DNA of 6,088 nt from Planctomycetota bacterium. GTDB taxonomy: Bacteria; Planctomycetota; B15-G4. Below are positions 1-6,088 of the stretch, piece after piece. Numbering within the stretch: the stretch's first letter is position 1; every line of letters begins with the position of its first letter. The notes below the pieces were generated by a model, which was not told where the DNA came from, searched no databases, and was given only the letters and a program-made list of their open reading frames with translations. The stretch is taken from assembly GCA_003644265.1 (NCBI GenBank), contig QNBX01000223.1, forward strand, positions 1 to 6,088, written 5' to 3'. The position numbers were made by a program, and so were the translations under genes.

Positions 1-418
1 CGCGCGGCACATCCTCGGCACGCAGTCGGTCGATGGTGCCGGTCGCGGTCAGCATGGCGCGGTTCTCGCCCGTGCCCAGGTGCACCGTGGCCCCGGTCGG
101 GATGACCTCGTCGATCGTGATGGTCGATGTGTCCACGCCCCGGTCCCGCAGGGCTTCGAGGATGGCGTGGCCGAGGATGTCATTGCCGACCACCCCACCG
201 TGAGCCACTCTGAGGCCCAATCGGGCGACGCCGCAGGCCGTGATGGACGACGAGCCGCCGACCGTCATCTTGATCGTGCCGACGTACTTCTCGACCTGCC
301 CGAACTCCGGCACCACATCCGCGTCGATGACGAGGATGTCCGGATTGACGTCACCGATGACGTAGAGGTCGGTTTCGCGCTCCGGCGTGTCAGTCACCTG
401 CTCCGGCGTGTCAGTCAC
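1..418 (-). CDS. PfkB-family sugar kinase, N-terminal part (cut by window edge)
   Basis: Reading leftward from GTG at 418, 139 codons are visible before the left edge cuts the gene, so the C-terminal catalytic half (GAGD motif) is not seen. The translation opens a ribokinase-type fold: a VIGDVNPDILV strand (residues 20-30), the substrate-side glycine pair in TVGGSSSITACGVARLG (52-68), then GGVVGNDILG (74-83). The family (PF00294) phosphorylates sugars or sugar phosphates with ATP in the cytoplasm. The GTG overlaps the upstream aldolase stop by 8 bp (GTGACTGA), implying translational coupling. A 21-nt tandem duplication gives a second in-frame GTG at 397, so the N-terminus could be seven residues shorter. 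By context it probably phosphorylates the ketose phosphate made by the SIS enzyme, like a tagatose-6-phosphate kinase, supplying the adjacent aldolase. The family call is secure; the substrate is inferred. Confidence 0.9.
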   Translation of the reverse strand, partial: MTDTPEQVTDTPERETDLYVIGDVNPDILVIDADVVPEFGQVEKYVGTIKMTVGGSSSITACGVARLGLRVAHGGVVGNDILGHAILEALRDRGVDTSTITIDEVIPTGATVHLGTGENRAMLTATGTIDRLRAEDVPR

Positions 419-419
419 C
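379..419. repeat. Tandem 20-nt duplication (period 21) over the kinase start
   Basis: Positions 379-398 and 400-419 are identical over 20 nt with a period of 21 nt. On the minus strand each copy contains GTGACTGACACGCCGGAG, so the kinase N-terminus reads VTDTPEQ then VTDTPER. The period equals seven codons, so the frame is kept and the start codon is duplicated. The first copy also contains the aldolase stop codon (411-413). Confidence 0.9.
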
Positions 420-1394
420 CGTACAACCCGGATAGCCGGTGTACCAGCCTTCGCCGGGCTCAGCCTGGTCGAGCAGGGGAGAGCGCTCGCGCCACGGCCG
501 GGCCTCGCTGTCGACGATGTCCACGAGCCGCTGCATTCGGGCCACGCCCTCCGATGCTAGCCAGGTATCACGCTCGGCGCCGACCATGGTGGCGCCTTCC
601 TTCCATACCGAGCGACCCACCAGCACGCCCGATGCGCCGGCCGCGCAGGCGACCTCGGTCTGGGCCTCGAAGGTGGCGTCATCAACGCCGGCCGAGAGGA
701 TGGCCCAGGGGATGGCAGACGCCTCCTCGAGCTCAGCGCAGGCTTCCTTCCAGCGGGTCCTGTCGGAAACCGAGGCGTCGTAGGGGAACTCGCACTTGAG
801 CACGTCGCCACCGAGCGCGGTGAGCCGGCGGGCTGTGCGCACCACCACGTCGCGGCGGGCGTCGTCGGTCAGCTTGGCCTCGTTCTCGTCGATGGGGAAG
901 CCCAGCGTCTCGAGGAACAGCGGCAGATCGGAGTCGGCGCAGCACTCGGCGACCTCGATGAGCAGGCGCTCCTGGTCCTCGGCGTTGGCAGCATCGGGGT
1001 GGTAGTAGAGCAGCAGTTTCACCGCGTCCCCGCCAAGTCGCTTGATCTGGGACACGCTCCAGCCGGGCAAGATGCGGCTCTGTCGGGCTATCGGAGAGCC
1101 CTCGTAGCCGCTCTTCTCGACCGCCACGAGCAGTCCGCAGCCTGATGGCAGCGAGCCGTCGGCCACGGCCGGACCGGCGCCGAGGTCGGGGTCCAGGAGG
1201 ATGCCGCTGGCAGTGCCGGCGATGGCGCGCACGATGGAGCGCTTCACGTCCACCATCAGCTCGTAGGTGACCGAGCCGGGGTCATCCGGGCCGAGCATGC
1301 GGCGCAGGTTGTTACGATGATCAAGCGCCAGGACCGAGAACGTGCCCTTGTCAGAGGCACAGGCGTCCAGGCCGCGAAGTGTGCCGAGCCTCAC
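411..1394 (-). CDS. LacD/DeoC-type class I aldolase (tagatose-1,6-bisphosphate aldolase-like)
   Basis: A 327-residue cytoplasmic enzyme starting at GTG 1394, with GGAGG at 1403-1407 (minus strand) eight nt upstream. It matches the class I LacD/YihT aldolase group (PF01791), which cleaves ketose 1,6-bisphosphates or 6-sulfofructose 1-phosphate into DHAP and an aldehyde. Visible motifs: LALDHRNNLRRML (residues 22-34), the barrel strand AVKLLLYYHPD (124-134, K126), LFLETL (159-164, E162) and GGDVLKCEFP (195-204). K200 aligns with the Schiff-base lysine of LacD. SAGVDD (234-239) and GVLVGRSVW (256-264) resemble the C-terminal phosphate-binding strands. The length is typical of LacD. It is the first gene of the leftward unit and is coupled to a PfkB kinase, supporting a kinase-aldolase pair. 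Tagatose/fructose bisphosphate is the likeliest substrate; a sulfosugar phosphate cannot be excluded. Confidence 0.9.
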   Translation of the reverse strand: MRLGTLRGLDACASDKGTFSVLALDHRNNLRRMLGPDDPGSVTYELMVDVKRSIVRAIAGTASGILLDPDLGAGPAVADGSLPSGCGLLVAVEKSGYEGSPIARQSRILPGWSVSQIKRLGGDAVKLLLYYHPDAANAEDQERLLIEVAECCADSDLPLFLETLGFPIDENEAKLTDDARRDVVVRTARRLTALGGDVLKCEFPYDASVSDRTRWKEACAELEEASAIPWAILSAGVDDATFEAQTEVACAAGASGVLVGRSVWKEGATMVGAERDTWLASEGVARMQRLVDIVDSEARPWRERSPLLDQAEPGEGWYTGYPGCTGD

Positions 1395-1472
1395 GGCAGC
1401 TTCCTCCCTGTGTGTCGATGGGCCCCGTCGTCAGGGGCCGCCGTCCGGATGCTACCATCGCCGGCGCCGGAC

Positions 1473-1488
1473 ATACGGACGTCCGTAT
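1473..1488. promoter_or_regulatory. Operator candidate 1: perfect 16-bp palindrome
   Basis: ATACGGACGTCCGTAT is a perfect inverted repeat with no central spacer. Its core CGGACGTCCGTA (1476-1487) recurs exactly at 1519-1530. A homodimeric GntR/HutC regulator encoded next to it would bind such a site. The sequence differs from the DasR/NagR box (TGGTCTAGACCA) although the overall shape is similar. It sits just upstream of the rightward TTGACA and within the spacer of the proposed leftward promoter. Confidence 0.7.
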
Positions 1489-1493
1489 CTCCC

Positions 1494-1499
1494 TTGACA
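1494..1499 (+). promoter_or_regulatory. TTGACA -35-like element for the gntR operon
   Basis: A perfect TTGACA hexamer faces gntR, between the two operator candidates. No good -10 hexamer is present 16-18 nt downstream, where the sequence is ACCGGA-like, so only the -35 half is supported. The second operator falls where the -10/+1 region would be, consistent with autorepression. Confidence 0.35.
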
Positions 1500-1518
1500 A
1501 TCGTGGCACCATGATGAC

Positions 1519-1530
1519 CGGACGTCCGTA
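1519..1530. promoter_or_regulatory. Operator candidate 2: repeat of the palindrome core
   Basis: CGGACGTCCGTA repeats the core of the upstream 16-bp palindrome. Ten of its bases (1519-1528, CGGACGTCCG) are self-complementary, and a further ACGTCC follows at 1530-1535. The offset between copies is 43 bp, close to four helical turns, so two dimers would lie on the same DNA face. It precedes the preferred gntR start at 1589, which keeps it outside the coding region. Confidence 0.55.
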
Positions 1531-1588
1531 CGTCCTGATGTCGAGCACGCCGGCGCCCGGATCTGGGGTCGGCCGGGAGGAGCAGCGC

Positions 1589-2317
1589 GTGGCGGTCGAG
1601 GCCGGGGGAACGCCCCTCTATCGACGCATCCAGTCCGATCTGCGTGAGCGCGTGGCCAGCGGTGAGTTGGCGCCCGGCGCCCAGGTGGAGACGGAGCTGG
1701 AGCTGATGGCGCGCCATGGCGTCAGCCGTGCCACCGTCCGTCAGGCCCTCGCGGGGCTGGTCTCCGAGGGATTGCTGGAGATACGCCGCGGACGTGGCAC
1801 GTTCGTGCATGGATCCGCGCTGGAGCACCGTCTCGGTGGCTTCTACACCTTCAGCCGCGAGATCGAGCGGCATGGCATGCGCCCCGGCACCCGCGTTCGT
1901 GGCATCGGCGTGGAGCGGGCAGCCGACGACGTCGCCGACGGCCTTGGCTTGGCGCCCGACACACCGGTCGTGGCACTTTCCCGCGTCCGCCTCGCCGATG
2001 AGCAGGCCATCGTGTCCGAGACCAGCTACCTGCCCGCGGCCCGCTTCAAGGGGCTCGAGGAGGTCGACTTCTCCACCGCCAGTCAGTATGAGACGCTGAC
2101 GACCACCTTCGGCGTGCGACCGGTGCGGGCCCGCGAGACCTTCGTGCCCGTGCTGCTCGACGACGATGACGCGGCCGTCCTCGGCGGCGCTACCGGCGAC
2201 CCGGTGCTGAGCGTCGAACGCACCACCTACGACGCCGACGATCTGATCATCGAGTTCTGCCAATCCATCCTCCGCGCCGATCGCTACCGCTACTCGGTCG
2301 AGCTGCGCGACGTTTGA
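1589..2317 (+). CDS. GntR/HutC-family transcriptional regulator with UTRA domain
   Basis: A 242-residue DNA-binding regulator. Residues 8-73 form the GntR winged helix: TPLYRRIQSDLRERVASG, then SRATVRQALAGLVSEGLL (46-63) as the recognition region and RRGRGTFV (66-73) as the wing. From about residue 84 comes a UTRA ligand-binding domain (GFYTFSREIERHG, SRVRLADEQAI, ETSYLPAARF, ending DRYRYSVEL), which in HutC-group proteins binds small effectors such as sugar phosphates. The start is GTG 1589, because GGGAGGAG (1575-1582) lies eight nt before it and the length then fits the family. In-frame ATGs at 1511, 1514 and 1538 would add a low-complexity tail and put the second operator inside the gene. 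It probably represses both divergent units through the nearby palindromes. The effector is unknown; a phosphorylated amino sugar is a guess from context. Confidence 0.93.
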   Translation: MAVEAGGTPLYRRIQSDLRERVASGELAPGAQVETELELMARHGVSRATVRQALAGLVSEGLLEIRRGRGTFVHGSALEHRLGGFYTFSREIERHGMRPGTRVRGIGVERAADDVADGLGLAPDTPVVALSRVRLADEQAIVSETSYLPAARFKGLEEVDFSTASQYETLTTTFGVRPVRARETFVPVLLDDDDAAVLGGATGDPVLSVERTTYDADDLIIEFCQSILRADRYRYSVELRDV

Positions 2318-2336
2318 TCCCTGCACAGGAGCATCC

Positions 2337-3392
2337 ATGACCACGCCCCAGACCCTCTCTGCCGCCGACATCCGTGAGCGCGTCACTGCGACCACGCCCT
2401 GGCGCGAAGCCAGCACCGGAGGCGAGGCCATCGCGGCTGCGCTCAAGGTCGCGCGGTCGGCGTCACAGGACATCGTCGACCGCCTCGACGGCGCCTCCCG
2501 CATCGTCATCACCGGCGCCGGCTCGTCGTTGTACATCTCACAGGTGGCGGCCTTCTCGATGCGTGCCCGCGCCAACCTGCCCGCCGAGGCCCAACCGCTG
2601 TCCGAGGTGCTCCTGCAGCCCGACGCCGTCTTCGCCGGTCAGTCGCTGGCCGACCAACCCGTCATCGTTGTCTCCCGCTCGGGCTCGACCACCGAAGCAC
2701 TGGAGGTCATCAAGGCTGCCCAGGCCCGCGGTCAGTACACCATCGCGGTCACCTGTCGCCCACACGCGCCCATGGCCGGCCTGGCCGATGCCACGTTGGC
2801 GGTACCCGAGGGCGATGAGGAAGCCATCGTGATGACGCGCTCGTTCGCGTCGCAGACCGCGCTGCTGATGCGTCTCGGTGCCCGTCTCGGTGATGAGGCC
2901 TTCGCTGCCGACCTCGATGCCATGCCGGACCAGTGGCCGGGCCTCGCTCCCTGGATCGAGCAGGCCTTCGAGCTGGCCGCCACGAACCCATCGCGCCTCA
3001 TCGTGCTCGGTGGTGGCGCTGCCTTCGGGCTCGCCAACGAGGCGGTGCTGAAGGCGACCGAGATGAGCCAGGTCCCTGCCTCTGCATTCCATCCGCTCGA
3101 GTTTCGCCACGGGCCCATGTCCGTGTGTGAGCCGGGTGTGATCGTGGTCGGTATCCTGGGTGGATCGTCGGAGGAAACAGAGCGGCGCGTCATCGAGGAG
3201 ACGGCGGTCCTGGGCGCGACCACGCTGCTGTTCGGTCCTGACGGTCCCGGCGCCGATCTGGATGAGATCGCCCGACTTCCGCTGGTGCTGCACGTACTGC
3301 AGGCCCTGGCGCTGGGTATCGCCGTTGGTCGGGGCCTTGATCCCGAGTCACCCCGGCACCTCGACCAGGTCGTCGTGATCGACGACCAGTAG
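2337..3392 (+). CDS. Tandem-SIS sugar-phosphate isomerase/deaminase (GlmS isomerase-domain/AgaS-like)
   Basis: A 351-residue cytoplasmic enzyme starting at ATG 2337, with AGGAG (2327-2331) five nt upstream and 19 bp after gntR. It has two SIS domains (PF01380). The first (about 45-185) has GAGSSLYISQ (60-69) and VSRSGSTTEA (112-121), the phosphosugar-binding serine loop. The second (about 215-345) has GGGAAFGLANEAVLKATEMS (225-244) and FRHGPMS (256-262), and the tail reads DPESPRHLD (335-343). E242 and H258 keep the 16-residue spacing of the GlmS catalytic pair E488/H504. No N-terminal glutaminase domain exists, so it cannot use glutamine as GlmS does. The position of the GlmS ring-opening lysine (K603) is Q344. 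This favours a catabolic aldose-ketose isomerase or amino-sugar-phosphate deaminase, as in AgaS or archaeal GlmD. A fructosamine deglycase is an alternative. Confidence 0.88.
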   Translation: MTTPQTLSAADIRERVTATTPWREASTGGEAIAAALKVARSASQDIVDRLDGASRIVITGAGSSLYISQVAAFSMRARANLPAEAQPLSEVLLQPDAVFAGQSLADQPVIVVSRSGSTTEALEVIKAAQARGQYTIAVTCRPHAPMAGLADATLAVPEGDEEAIVMTRSFASQTALLMRLGARLGDEAFAADLDAMPDQWPGLAPWIEQAFELAATNPSRLIVLGGGAAFGLANEAVLKATEMSQVPASAFHPLEFRHGPMSVCEPGVIVVGILGGSSEETERRVIEETAVLGATTLLFGPDGPGADLDEIARLPLVLHVLQALALGIAVGRGLDPESPRHLDQVVVIDDQ

Positions 3393-3397
3393 CCACC

Positions 3398-3799
3398 TTG
3401 CTCCGCTTCGACCTGTCGACGAGCCGGCCCACGCAGGCCATCGACATCACGCACCTCTTTGCCTCGCGTGAGTGGCCCGATGGCTTGCTGCTGGCCTCGG
3501 TCGAGCACACCACCGCGGCCATCTTCCTGGGCGAATCGGGGTCCGAGATGTTCGCGGACTACGAGCGTGTTGCGGCCGGCCTGGTCGAGCAGTACGGACC
3601 CTGGCAGCACGAGACCTGGAACCCGGGCAACGCCCAGTCCCACGTGCTGTCCAGCTTCATCGGCACGCAACTGCTGTTGCCCATCAGTGGCGGCGGCCTT
3701 GATGTCGGAACCTGGCAGAGGGTCATCTTCCTGGAGCTGGATGGCCCGCGCCAGCGCTCCATCGCGGTGGCGAGCCTGGGCGCCCGGCCACTGCGGTAG
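3398..3799 (+). CDS. yjbQ: YjbQ/UPF0047-family protein
   Basis: A 133-residue protein of the YjbQ family (PF01894), whose true function is unsettled; databases often name it secondary thiamine-phosphate synthase from weak activity. Landmarks: IDITHLF (15-21), VEHTTAAIFLGES (35-47), AQSHVLSSFIG (79-89), LPISGGGLDVGTWQRVIFLE (94-113) and DGPRQR (115-120). The conserved histidines (H37, H82), E46, GTWQ (104-107) and E113 are present, so a metal/active-site pocket is probably intact. The start is TTG 3398, five bp after the SIS stop with no clear ribosome binding site. No in-frame ATG or GTG lies nearby, so translation probably depends on coupling to the SIS gene. Its place inside the sugar operon suggests a role in that pathway rather than thiamine synthesis. 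The family call is firm; the role is unknown. Confidence 0.92.
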   Translation: MLRFDLSTSRPTQAIDITHLFASREWPDGLLLASVEHTTAAIFLGESGSEMFADYERVAAGLVEQYGPWQHETWNPGNAQSHVLSSFIGTQLLLPISGGGLDVGTWQRVIFLELDGPRQRSIAVASLGARPLR

Positions 3800-3826
3800 C
3801 GGCGGCCGATGTTGAAGGAGGCAGAT

Positions 3827-4531
3827 ATGCGCGTGATGGCGATCGGTGCTCATCCCGACGACCTTGAGATCCTGTGTGCGGGGACGCTGGCCCGGTACGT
3901 CGCCGAGGGGCATGCCGTCACCATGTGCCACATCGCGCGTGGCGACCGCGGGTCCTACGAGCACACCCGCGAGGAGATCGCGACGATCCGCGACGGAGAA
4001 GCGCGCCGGGCCGCCGAGCTGATCGGTGCTGAGTACCTGGCGCTCGGTGTCGCCGACGGCGAGGTCAACGCGTCCGATCCGGGGCAGCGGGAGATCGTGG
4101 CCGAGGCGGTCCGGGTGGCCCGGCCGGACGTCGTGCTTGCACACGCCCCCAACGACTACATGACCGATCATGTCGAGGCCTCACGGCTGGCGCTCGACTC
4201 GAGTTTCCTGGCCACGCTCCCGCTGTTCGAGACCGAGTCGCCACACCTCGAGAACGTGCCGGCCCTGGCCTACATGGAGACCGTCACCGGGAACGACTTC
4301 GTACCCACCGAGTTCGTCGACATCTCCGGCTTCATCGAGACCAAGCTGACCATGCTCTCGAAGCATGAGAGCCAGTTGCGATGGCTGGCCGACCACGATG
4401 GCGTCGACATGCTGGACCAGATTCGCACGGTGTCGCGGTTTCGCGGACTGCAGTGCGGTGTCGAGTACGCCGAGGGGTTCATCCCCTGCAACGTCTGGTT
4501 GCGAGCCCGGGCGAACCGCTTCCTGCCCTGA
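3827..4531 (+). CDS. PIG-L-family zinc deacetylase
   Basis: A 234-residue LmbE/PIG-L enzyme (PF02585), the family that includes GlcNAc-PI, mycothiol-precursor (MshB) and bacillithiol-precursor deacetylases and archaeal diacetylchitobiose deacetylase. The signature AHPDD lies at residues 8-12. H9 and D12 are expected zinc ligands, D11 the catalytic base and H115 in YMTDH (111-115) the third ligand. Other matches are ARGDRGSY (37-44), IRDGEARRAAELIG (54-67) and RPDVVLAHAPND (99-110). The start is ATG 3827, five nt after AAGGAGG (3815-3821). An in-frame ATG at 3809 lies upstream of that site and is unlikely. No signal peptide or membrane segment is seen, so it acts on a cytoplasmic substrate. 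As the last gene of the unit it probably deacetylates the N-acetylated sugar, or its phosphate, before the SIS step. A thiol-cofactor role is less likely, since no such genes are near. Confidence 0.92.
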   Translation: MRVMAIGAHPDDLEILCAGTLARYVAEGHAVTMCHIARGDRGSYEHTREEIATIRDGEARRAAELIGAEYLALGVADGEVNASDPGQREIVAEAVRVARPDVVLAHAPNDYMTDHVEASRLALDSSFLATLPLFETESPHLENVPALAYMETVTGNDFVPTEFVDISGFIETKLTMLSKHESQLRWLADHDGVDMLDQIRTVSRFRGLQCGVEYAEGFIPCNVWLRARANRFLP

Positions 4532-4567: not shown

Positions 4568-5029
4568 TCAATCGAGGAAGAGATCCAGGCCGATCAGGAT
4601 CGAACCGGTGATGAGCACGGCGTAGACGAAGACGCTGATGACCGAGGCGACCAGGAACGGCCGCGAGGCCATGCCCAGCCCCTTGGCTGCTAGCGCCATG
4701 GTCCAGACGCCGAGGAGGGGCGTAGCGACGAAGACCAACGCCACGCCATAGCGGGAGAGAAGACGCTCGACACGCTCCCGGCGCAGCTTGGCCAGCCAGT
4801 GGTCGACTCGGTCGACGCGGCGCAGGCGCTCATAGCCGAAATCGATCAGGAACAGCGGCACGATGTTGCCCAGCGCCGACCAGACGGTCGCCGAGATGGG
4901 GTCAAGCCCGGCCGCCAGCCCGACGGGGATGGCGACGTAGATCTCGAATAGCGGGAAGAAGCCGACGAACCAGGCTAGCGCCGCCGCCGCGAGGTAGTTG
5001 ACGACGCTCGACCGGGCAGGGCTTCGCGA
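4568..5029 (-). CDS. Small multidrug export-family membrane protein (COG2426), start codon unresolved
   Basis: The open frame from the TGA at 5032-5030 down to the TGA at 4568-4570 encodes up to 153 residues, matching the Sm_multidrug_ex family (PF06695), whose transport function is only putative. The first membrane segment runs through LAWFVGFFPLFEIYVAIPVG, with the conserved P-x-x-E and IP signature. SALGNIVPLFLIDFG follows, then a charged cytoplasmic linker rich in R and D, then YGVALVFVATPLLGVWTMAL and a last hydrophobic helix near the C-terminus. The conserved frame has no ATG, GTG or TTG before the first helix. The first GTG is at 4861, inside the GN-I-V-P motif, and starting there would remove the signature helix. 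Candidates are near-cognate GTC codons at 5005 and 5002, or an indel or sequencing error upstream. It lies just downstream of the ABM gene, so coupling is possible. The family is clear; integrity is uncertain. Confidence 0.75.
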   Translation of the reverse strand, partial: SRSPARSSVVNYLAAAALAWFVGFFPLFEIYVAIPVGLAAGLDPISATVWSALGNIVPLFLIDFGYERLRRVDRVDHWLAKLRRERVERLLSRYGVALVFVATPLLGVWTMALAAKGLGMASRPFLVASVISVFVYAVLITGSILIGLDLFLD

Positions 5030-5033
5030 TCAG

Positions 5034-5384
5034 TTAGCGGGTGATGCCGCCGAGGCGCTCGTAGTGGACGGTCTCGACATCCTTCAGTTCCGCCCAGAGG
5101 TCTTCGTTGACGTCACCGATGACGGCGATCTTGACCTTGTCCAACGTGTCGAACAGGGCCGGCACCAGGTCGGCCACGTGGCGGTTGTGAAACACGAAGG
5201 CGTCGGCATCCTTGAATACCTCGATGTTCACGTTCTTCGTGCCATCGGCCGTGAGGAAGAACTCGTAGCGCAGCGTGCCCGGCTCCTCTTGCGTCTTGGC
5301 GAAGAGCGGCGCGGCGGCGGCCTTGAAGTCGTCAGTGCGACCGGGCTTGATGTCGAACTCGACGAACAGTGTGGTCTCAGCCAT
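5034..5384 (-). CDS. Antibiotic-biosynthesis-monooxygenase (ABM) fold protein
   Basis: A 116-residue protein starting at ATG 5384, with GGAGG (5395-5391) six nt upstream and 20 nt after the methyltransferase stop. It matches the dimeric ferredoxin-like ABM fold (PF03992, YgiN-like): the first strand is TLFVEFDIKPG (5-15), followed by a helix, then EEPGTLRYEFF (33-43), VNIEVFKDADAFVFHNRHV (52-70) with H66, and a C-terminal helix and strand. The family includes heme-degrading and quinol mono-oxygenases, but most small stand-alone members have no known reaction. It lies between an RNA methyltransferase and a membrane protein, a mixed context that does not indicate a substrate. Family confidence is high; the domain name should not be read as a proven role in antibiotic biosynthesis. 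Confidence 0.85.
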   Translation of the reverse strand: MAETTLFVEFDIKPGRTDDFKAAAAPLFAKTQEEPGTLRYEFFLTADGTKNVNIEVFKDADAFVFHNRHVADLVPALFDTLDKVKIAVIGDVNEDLWAELKDVETVHYERLGGITR

Positions 5385-5404
5385 GGGATCCCTCCGTTTG
5401 GTTT

Positions 5405-6088
5405 CTAGCGATCGGCGGTGCGACGTTGCCGCCGTGCCTCATAGAAGAGTACGGCTGCGCTGGCCGAGACATTGAGGCTGTCCGCCAACCCCAGCATGGG
5501 GATGTTCAGCGGTGTCACGCCTTCGCCCTCCCAGGCCTCGGTGAGGCCGATCGTCTCGGCACCGACCACGAGAGCGACCGGAGCAGTCAGGTCGGCCGCG
5601 TCGTAGTCGGTCTCCGCCCCGACGCGTGCAGTGAGGATGGCGATGCCGTGCTCGCGCAGGAAGGCCAGCGCTTCAGTCGATGAGGCGGCGGCCAGCGGCA
5701 GGCTGAAGATCGTGCCCAGGCTGGCGCGGATGGCGTTGGGGTTCCAGATGTCCGACACCGGATCGGCCACGATGACCACGTCGACGCCGGCGCCATCGGC
5801 CGAGCGCAATAGCGCACCGAGGTTGCCGGGCTTCTCTACGCGCTCCACCACCGCGATGAGCGGTCGCTCCGGCAGCTCCAGCCGATCGAGGTCGGTCGGT
5901 GGTGTTTCGAGCACGGCCACGATGCCCTCGTCGCGCTCCCCGTAGGCCAGCCGCGCCAGCAGCTCCGGGGTCGCCTCGATGAACTCGCCACTCGACGCGG
6001 CCAGCCGCGGCAGCAGCGCCGCCGCGGCGTCGCTGCGAACGCGCTCGACCGCCACCCAGGCTTCGACGAGCGGAACGCCGGCATCGAG
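5405..6088 (-). CDS. SpoU/TrmH-family RNA 2'-O-ribose methyltransferase (5' end outside window)
   Basis: The frame is open to the right edge, so the N-terminus is missing; about 227 residues are visible, ending at the TAG at 5405-5407. A GTG at 6055 is probably internal, because the frame upstream (LDAGVPLVEAW) continues a typical SpoU substrate-binding domain. The C-terminal SPOUT knot is complete: motif 1 EKPGNLGALLRSADGAGVD with its conserved N and R, the DIWNPNAIRASLGTIFSLPL segment, motif 2 ALVVGAETIGL, and motif 3 LNIPMLGLADSLNVSASAAV followed by LFYEARRQR. The enzyme uses S-adenosylmethionine to methylate a ribose 2'-OH in rRNA or tRNA. Related proteins include RlmB and the thiostrepton-resistance methyltransferase TsnR; the exact target cannot be read here. 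It is the first visible gene of the leftward unit. Confidence 0.92.
   Translation of the reverse strand, partial: LDAGVPLVEAWVAVERVRSDAAAALLPRLAASSGEFIEATPELLARLAYGERDEGIVAVLETPPTDLDRLELPERPLIAVVERVEKPGNLGALLRSADGAGVDVVIVADPVSDIWNPNAIRASLGTIFSLPLAAASSTEALAFLREHGIAILTARVGAETDYDAADLTAPVALVVGAETIGLTEAWEGEGVTPLNIPMLGLADSLNVSASAAVLFYEARRQRRTADR

Follow-up and report, generated by a model that had tools for sequence, protein, structure and literature searches.

The divergent gene locus described here, from a Chloroflexota-type bacterium, lies on a 6,088-bp stretch of contig QNBX01000223.1 (the window), whose left edge cuts the gene of a PfkB-family kinase. Its leftward arm encodes a LacD-type aldolase and this kinase, its rightward arm a GntR/UTRA regulator, an SIS-domain protein, a YjbQ protein and a PIG-L protein. 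On balance, we consider it probable that the locus encodes a variant of the aga-type pathway for galactosamine (GalN) and N-acetylgalactosamine (GalNAc), with the PIG-L protein as candidate for a non-orthologous deacetylase. Judging from gene families and neighbourhoods, the substrate would most likely be an N-acetylated amino sugar, GalNAc or GalN(Ac)-containing oligosaccharides.

In the proposed pathway, an ATP-binding cassette (ABC) importer, encoded at an unlinked site or off the left edge, would take up the sugar. The PIG-L protein would strip the acetyl group, the PfkB kinase would yield GalN-6-phosphate, and the SIS protein would convert this by deamination and isomerisation to tagatose-6-phosphate. 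Tagatose-1,6-bisphosphate would then be made by another kinase, a LacC-like PfkB or KbaZ whose gene is predicted to lie immediately past the left edge, and LacD would split this bisphosphate into two triose phosphates. The GntR/UTRA protein could act as repressor of both arms.

Conservation and co-occurrence of the genes

Families were called by Pfam and NCBIfam profile scores. A first-pass annotation had named four of them (PIG-L, SIS, PfkB and LacD-like), and all four were indeed present by Pfam matches. The best homologues of the SIS, LacD and PIG-L proteins were 93%, 92% and 90% identical over 98-100% of their length (the PIG-L figure excludes P0241, the window's own protein), and by these matches all three are real conserved genes. 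Two homologues, P0050 and P0172, were named Candidatus Limnocylindrales.

Contigs shared between homologue lists were recognised by equal size above 5 kb, each homologue being represented by its longest contig only; a shared large contig does not amount to adjacency, nor a missing coincidence to absence. Fourteen contigs were common to the 41 SIS and 41 aldolase homologue contigs, where about 0.08 were expected (rough simulation, 0.075). Four were common to the SIS and PIG-L homologues (15 PIG-L entries of at least 65% identity, one of them the window's own), and contigs of 220,882 and 1,472,007 bases occurred in all three lists. This sharing is more than chance would give. SIS matches at E <= 1e-60 were rare among 177 genomes of the class to which the Chloroflexota genome CSP1-4 belongs (3 of 177), and a PIG-L match at E <= 1e-50 was present in one of the 177, at 39% identity.

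Aldolase and kinases

The class I aldolase of LacD/DeoC type (411-1394, minus strand; PF01791, E 2.1e-27) scored 267.7 bits with the tagatose-1,6-bisphosphate aldolase model NF009498 (cut-off 184), and 105 bits with the stricter LacD equivalog TIGR01232 (cut-off 432). Its Lys200 and Glu162 fall in conserved motifs, and we take Lys200, together with Glu162, to be catalytic, the former as candidate Schiff-base residue. We propose that it is a tagatose-1,6-bisphosphate aldolase.

The PfkB fragment (2-418, minus strand; N-terminal 139 residues; PF00294, E 5.6e-15) groups with the sugar-kinase (IolC/ribokinase-like) kind and not with the LacC-like kind. It is 45-54% identical to IolC-like/ribokinase-like PfkB proteins in the neighbourhoods L002, L012, L034, L045, L102/L132 and L133. 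Altogether, 20 loci of SIS relatives were examined (L001-L003, L010, L012, L019, L034, L045, L086, L100-L105, L127-L131), eight of them from a set of 48 more distant SIS loci, the other 40 of which were scanned with the window proteins only; some automatic open reading frame picks in these neighbourhoods were wrong frames. In 11 of the 20, a sugar kinase (IolC/ribokinase-like PfkB or ROK) was accompanied by a LacC-like PfkB or KbaZ (L002, L012, L034, L045, L100, L101, L102/L132, L104, L105/L133, L130 and L131). As for the rest, L086 and L103 had ROK alone, L019 gave a partial match to ROK in addition to a LacC-like one, and neither kinase kind was seen in L001, L003, L010, L127, L128 and L129 (L001, L003 and L127 being on short contigs). 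GatZ/KbaZ comes after LacD-PfkB in genomes G305 and G462 and after PfkB in L034; LacD and KbaZ were looked for in L012 and L045 and none was found.

Since the corresponding PfkB gene of relatives is accompanied by a further kinase gene, LacC-like or KbaZ, the window PfkB probably acts before the SIS protein, making an amino-sugar 6-phosphate. Neither LacC nor AgaZ/KbaZ was present within the window, and the frequency of two-kinase loci suggests that the tagatose-6-phosphate kinase is probably encoded beyond the left edge. The step order first suggested for the locus thus retains its tagatose-type kinase-aldolase end, but probably not its placement of PfkB after SIS. Published work is cited here from excerpts of the papers; for the aga pathway, these propose AgaZ/KbaZ as tagatose-6-phosphate kinase, have LacD split the bisphosphate, and put most variation in the first two steps (PMC4694137, PMC12118421).

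Relatives of the SIS, LacD and PfkB proteins were found together with ABC sugar importers. The divergent LacD-PfkB / GntR-SIS plan of the window recurs in L002, with extra genes: there, aldolase and PfkB diverge from a gene of glycoside hydrolase (GH) family 4, an ABC importer, GntR, SIS and Amidohydro_2. A ROK variant, Gfo/Idh-ROK-SIS-LacC-LacD, was present in L100, L101, L130 and L131, and L104 is the same without the aldolase, its contig ending there. GH4 genes occurred in seven of the 20 loci (L001, L002, L034, L045, L102, L128 and L129), and GH20 adjoins SIS in L103. The importers, the hexosamine or galactosamine glycosidases and the GatZ/KbaZ or LacC-like genes of relatives support the original idea of an amino-sugar catabolic locus. 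The Gfo/Idh protein of L100 was considered as a GH109 N-acetylgalactosaminidase; no match so named was among the best 60 of its 63 PDB matches, and we do not claim this function. In L105, a galactosamine-type cluster, a DUF4874/DUF4832 protein and a CBM9 protein (12645-15112) are encoded between importer and LacD.

The SIS protein and the choice of substrate

We propose the SIS protein (2337-3392, plus strand; PF01380, E 8.9e-23) as a galactosamine-6-phosphate deaminase/isomerase. It scored 97 bits with GlmS, 95.2 with GlmD (NF041128, cut-off 580), 91.3 with NagB-II (NF046059, cut-off 430) and 68.8 with AgaS (TIGR02815, cut-off 529.2). In the alignment, where two NagB-II rows (L117 and L118) were read wrongly and a number of rows begin with additional residues because reading was extended back to the preceding stop, it retains the GlmS-type Glu242 and His258 and has Gln344 at the C-terminal Lys position of GlmS/NagB-II-like proteins; we assume catalytic roles for the Glu, the His and this Lys. 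Cluster SIS proteins have Gln, Ala, Ser or Arg in place of the Lys, with Ala in ROK-type relatives and Arg in most Actinomycetota relatives. A tree (omitting L117, L118, L004, L005, L006 and L009, and with stops entered as X) split the SIS group plus AgaS from GlmS plus NagB-II with support of 99/97, AgaS and FrlB being on long, uncertain branches. The SIS match in G303 contains one in-frame TAG. An Amadori-sugar (FrlB) function was rejected, the fructoselysine-6-phosphate deglycase model giving 30.9 bits (cut-off 430). Because all four Chloroflexota genomes tested (G002, G305, G462 and G474) hold a better NagB-II-like SIS protein elsewhere (216-251 bits, cut-off 430), we regard the cluster SIS protein as a paralogue.

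Galactosamine is suggested by the glycosidases of two relatives. G305 has two GH114 domains (297 and 98 bits), both located inside the SIS cluster, and is the only one of eight genomes searched with any GH114; excerpts of PMC12054363 give galactosamine-containing exopolysaccharides as GH114 substrates. A GH36 protein of G462 is similar to a structure titled 'A type blood alpha-D-galactosamine galactosaminidase' (E 6e-63). Entry 8x1b, titled alpha-galactosidase, gives a similar score for this range with positions shifted by 17 throughout, and the two entries may represent one protein. According to the excerpted text of PMC11762096, FpGalNase acts jointly with a GalNAc deacetylase.

Several observations weigh against a galactosamine pathway of this composition. 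The SIS protein reached none of the three deaminase family cut-offs tested (AgaS, GlmD and NagB-II). G305 and G462 are distant from the window (SIS 38% and 36% identical), and among the eight genomes searched GH114 was absent from the closest readable relatives, G001-G003 (SIS 49-54%). These closest relatives are without galactosamine-specific glycosidases; the GH4 protein of L001, considered as a GalN enzyme, matches glucosidases and a galacturonidase instead. No PIG-L was found in the 48 more distant SIS neighbourhoods scanned with the window proteins, and YjbQ stands between SIS and PIG-L without an assigned pathway step.

An alternative, which we hold unlikely, is that the substrate is N-acetylglucosamine (GlcNAc) or another amino sugar and not GalNAc. 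The SIS protein would then yield fructose-6-phosphate, with PfkB and LacD serving the pathway as its own phosphofructokinase and fructose-bisphosphate aldolase. The GlmS, GlmD and NagB-II models indeed outscored AgaS on the SIS protein, and the GH20 gene of L103 is equally compatible with GlcNAc. However, the four tested Chloroflexota genomes possess a separate NagB-II-like SIS protein, relatives carry KbaZ, LacC-like and GH114/GH36 genes, and a dedicated aldolase would be needless for fructose-6-phosphate.

The PIG-L protein

The PIG-L (LmbE-like) protein is encoded at 3827-4531 on the plus strand (open frame 3809-4531, likely start ATG 3827; PF02585, E 6.9e-25). It scored 88.5 bits with PF02585 (cut-off 28.2), and a motif that we take to be the metal site is invariant in 22 sequences. 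We propose it as the GalNAc deacetylase. The textbook bacterial route uses an amidohydrolase deacetylase, NagA/AgaA, which is unrelated to PIG-L; none of this type was among the window's nine proteins, the region to the left being outside view.

It is also conceivable, if improbable, that the protein is outside the pathway, a mere operon resident that serves bacillithiol-like thiol synthesis or acts on some other conjugate. BshB1 (TIGR04001) was its best NCBIfam model, at 124.6 bits but short of the cut-off of 182.5; BshB and BC1534 topped its fold search, in which Dac structures were also matched, and its absence from the distant SIS loci would fit as well. Against this, PIG-L homologues share contigs with SIS and LacD homologues, and PIG-L relatives adjoin ROK, SIS or NagB-like genes. 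In L086, a relative 61% identical overlaps a ROK gene and is divergent to ABC-SIS. In 12 low-GC Actinomycetota loci (L087-L098), the relative is 42-48% identical, with a NagB-like protein near it in 11; this label was taken from a single member (TIGR00502, E 6e-24, under the cut-off; no Pfam match at 1e-6). Many of these 12 loci also contain Gfo/Idh, ROK, URO-D, BadF-type and ribose-type ABC genes, and they possibly represent another amino-sugar route. The conserved neighbourhood that the first-pass annotation had put forward as a check was borne out in part: closer homologues share contigs with SIS and LacD, while the distant loci lack PIG-L.

In all six relatives with this type of PfkB, Amidohydro_2 is present; in its stead the window has YjbQ and PIG-L. 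This conserved gene accompanies SIS in seven of the 20 loci: L001 (6761-7831), L002 (11005-12072), L012, L034, L045, L102 and L105. We considered it as the displaced deacetylase. The structural matches of a model built from five relatives (mean predicted local distance difference test score 74.9) included many amidohydrolase barrels, with 2dvt at the top (template modelling score 0.53), and no sugar deacetylase was prominent among the 50 matches listed; such a role is thus conjectural. The L105 protein had no PDB sequence match at E values up to 1.

A bolder extension of the preferred aga-type reading, which we regard as possible but doubtful, is that PIG-L is a bacterial enzyme dedicated to GalNAc deacetylation, as opposed to one acting on chitobiose or in bacillithiol synthesis, and has displaced an amidohydrolase in a gene module that targets galactosamine-rich exopolysaccharides (for example fungal galactosaminogalactan or bacterial Pel), with YjbQ as a new step or accessory. 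A literature search, whose coverage left out most subscription journals, gave a single hit for PIG-L with SIS or chitin, a Bacillus pellicle proteome, and none for tagatose-type GalN catabolism with SIS or PIG-L. If the preferred reading is true, PIG-L proteins would gain a catabolic amino-sugar role in bacteria, a possible route for the use of galactosamine polymers would be indicated for some uncultured Chloroflexota, and YjbQ, widespread and with a tentative function only, would be placed in a testable pathway. GalNAc pathways may thus be overlooked where only NagA/AgaA is sought.

That PfkB and LacD serve another keto-sugar, either inositol-type (5-dehydro-2-deoxygluconate) or sulfofructose of sulfoglycolysis, is very improbable: of the five PfkB relatives in the neighbourhoods, four had IolC (TIGR04382) as their best model (119-137 bits; L045 had 88.9, just below ribokinase) and the aldolase matches DUF2090, the uncharacterised DUF2090 protein 8tnf (its top PDB match) and YihT structures (best E 2.9e-25), but the IolC cut-off of 300 was reached neither by the window fragment (44.7 bits) nor by full-length relatives (137 at most), LacD structures matched better (E 3.3e-34), the aldolase scores above the tagatose-bisphosphate cut-off, and relatives have KbaZ and LacC-like neighbours.

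Locus layout and neighbouring features

The gene order and tight spacing reported initially were confirmed: PfkB and LacD overlap by 8 bp, and gaps of 19, 5 and 27 bp separate GntR from SIS, SIS from YjbQ and YjbQ from PIG-L. The regulator and YjbQ had been overlooked. The GntR/UTRA protein (1589-2317, plus strand; PF07702, E 2.1e-39; PF00392) had HutC as its best NCBIfam model (124.5 bits, below the cut-off of 220) and is 62-66% identical to the regulators of L001, L002 and L003; in excerpts of PMC4694137, the HutC subfamily includes streptococcal AgaR regulators. The YjbQ/UPF0047 protein (3398-3799, plus strand; PF01894, E 3.5e-24) scored 70.8 bits with TIGR00149 (cut-off 67.75), and a search of the 20 SIS loci yielded no relative.

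In the divergent gap between LacD and GntR (about 194 bp, 1395-1588), two palindromic sites 43 bp apart (1475-1486 and 1518-1529) are putative operators. As operator evidence the pair is weak, the two matches with at most two mismatches comparing with 0.68 expected and 26 of 200 shuffles reaching two. A promoter and terminator scan of 1350-1700 detected nothing. The minus-strand genes past 4531 (4568-6088) encode a small membrane protein (weak Sm_multidrug_ex match), an ABM-domain protein and a SpoU-type RNA methylase, and look unrelated to the operon. The 14 best matches of the methylase (50-57% identity) were in genomes inferred to share the class of CSP1-4.

Comparison with known systems

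The YihV/YihT pair of the sulfo-Embden-Meyerhof-Parnas pathway, as excerpted from PMC9594981, likewise combines a PfkB kinase with a class I aldolase, and the Pfam families are those of the window proteins; the window aldolase is nearer to LacD, and the annotated stretches contained no recognisable yihS- or yihQ-like gene. From BshB1, the PIG-L protein differs in its score below the family cut-off and in its sugar-catabolic neighbours. The Chloroflexota and Actinomycetota loci L002, L102/L132, L105/L133 and L034 all combine SIS with an IolC-like PfkB, and three of them (not L034) have LacD; they differ in having Amidohydro_2, an ABC importer and glycosidases, whereas the window has YjbQ and PIG-L.

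The archaeal chitin pathway uses Dac/GlmD, and the first-pass annotation had described the locus as these enzymes joined to a tagatose-type end. Since the SIS protein is far under the GlmD cut-off, this is not the best description; the protein is also without the C-terminal Lys, and the end of the pathway is of tagatose type. A better fit is an aga-type GalN/GalNAc pathway in which the deacetylase is of another kind. As described in excerpts of PMC4694137 and PMC12118421, the aga pathway comprises AgaS, AgaZ or LacC, AgaY or LacD, and AgaA. The window differs from it in the SIS score below the AgaS cut-off, in PIG-L taking the place of NagA/AgaA, in the IolC-like PfkB and YjbQ, and in that no phosphotransferase system was seen there. 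What it shares with the aga pathway is a candidate SIS deaminase, a LacD-type aldolase, a HutC-like GntR regulator and the tagatose logic.

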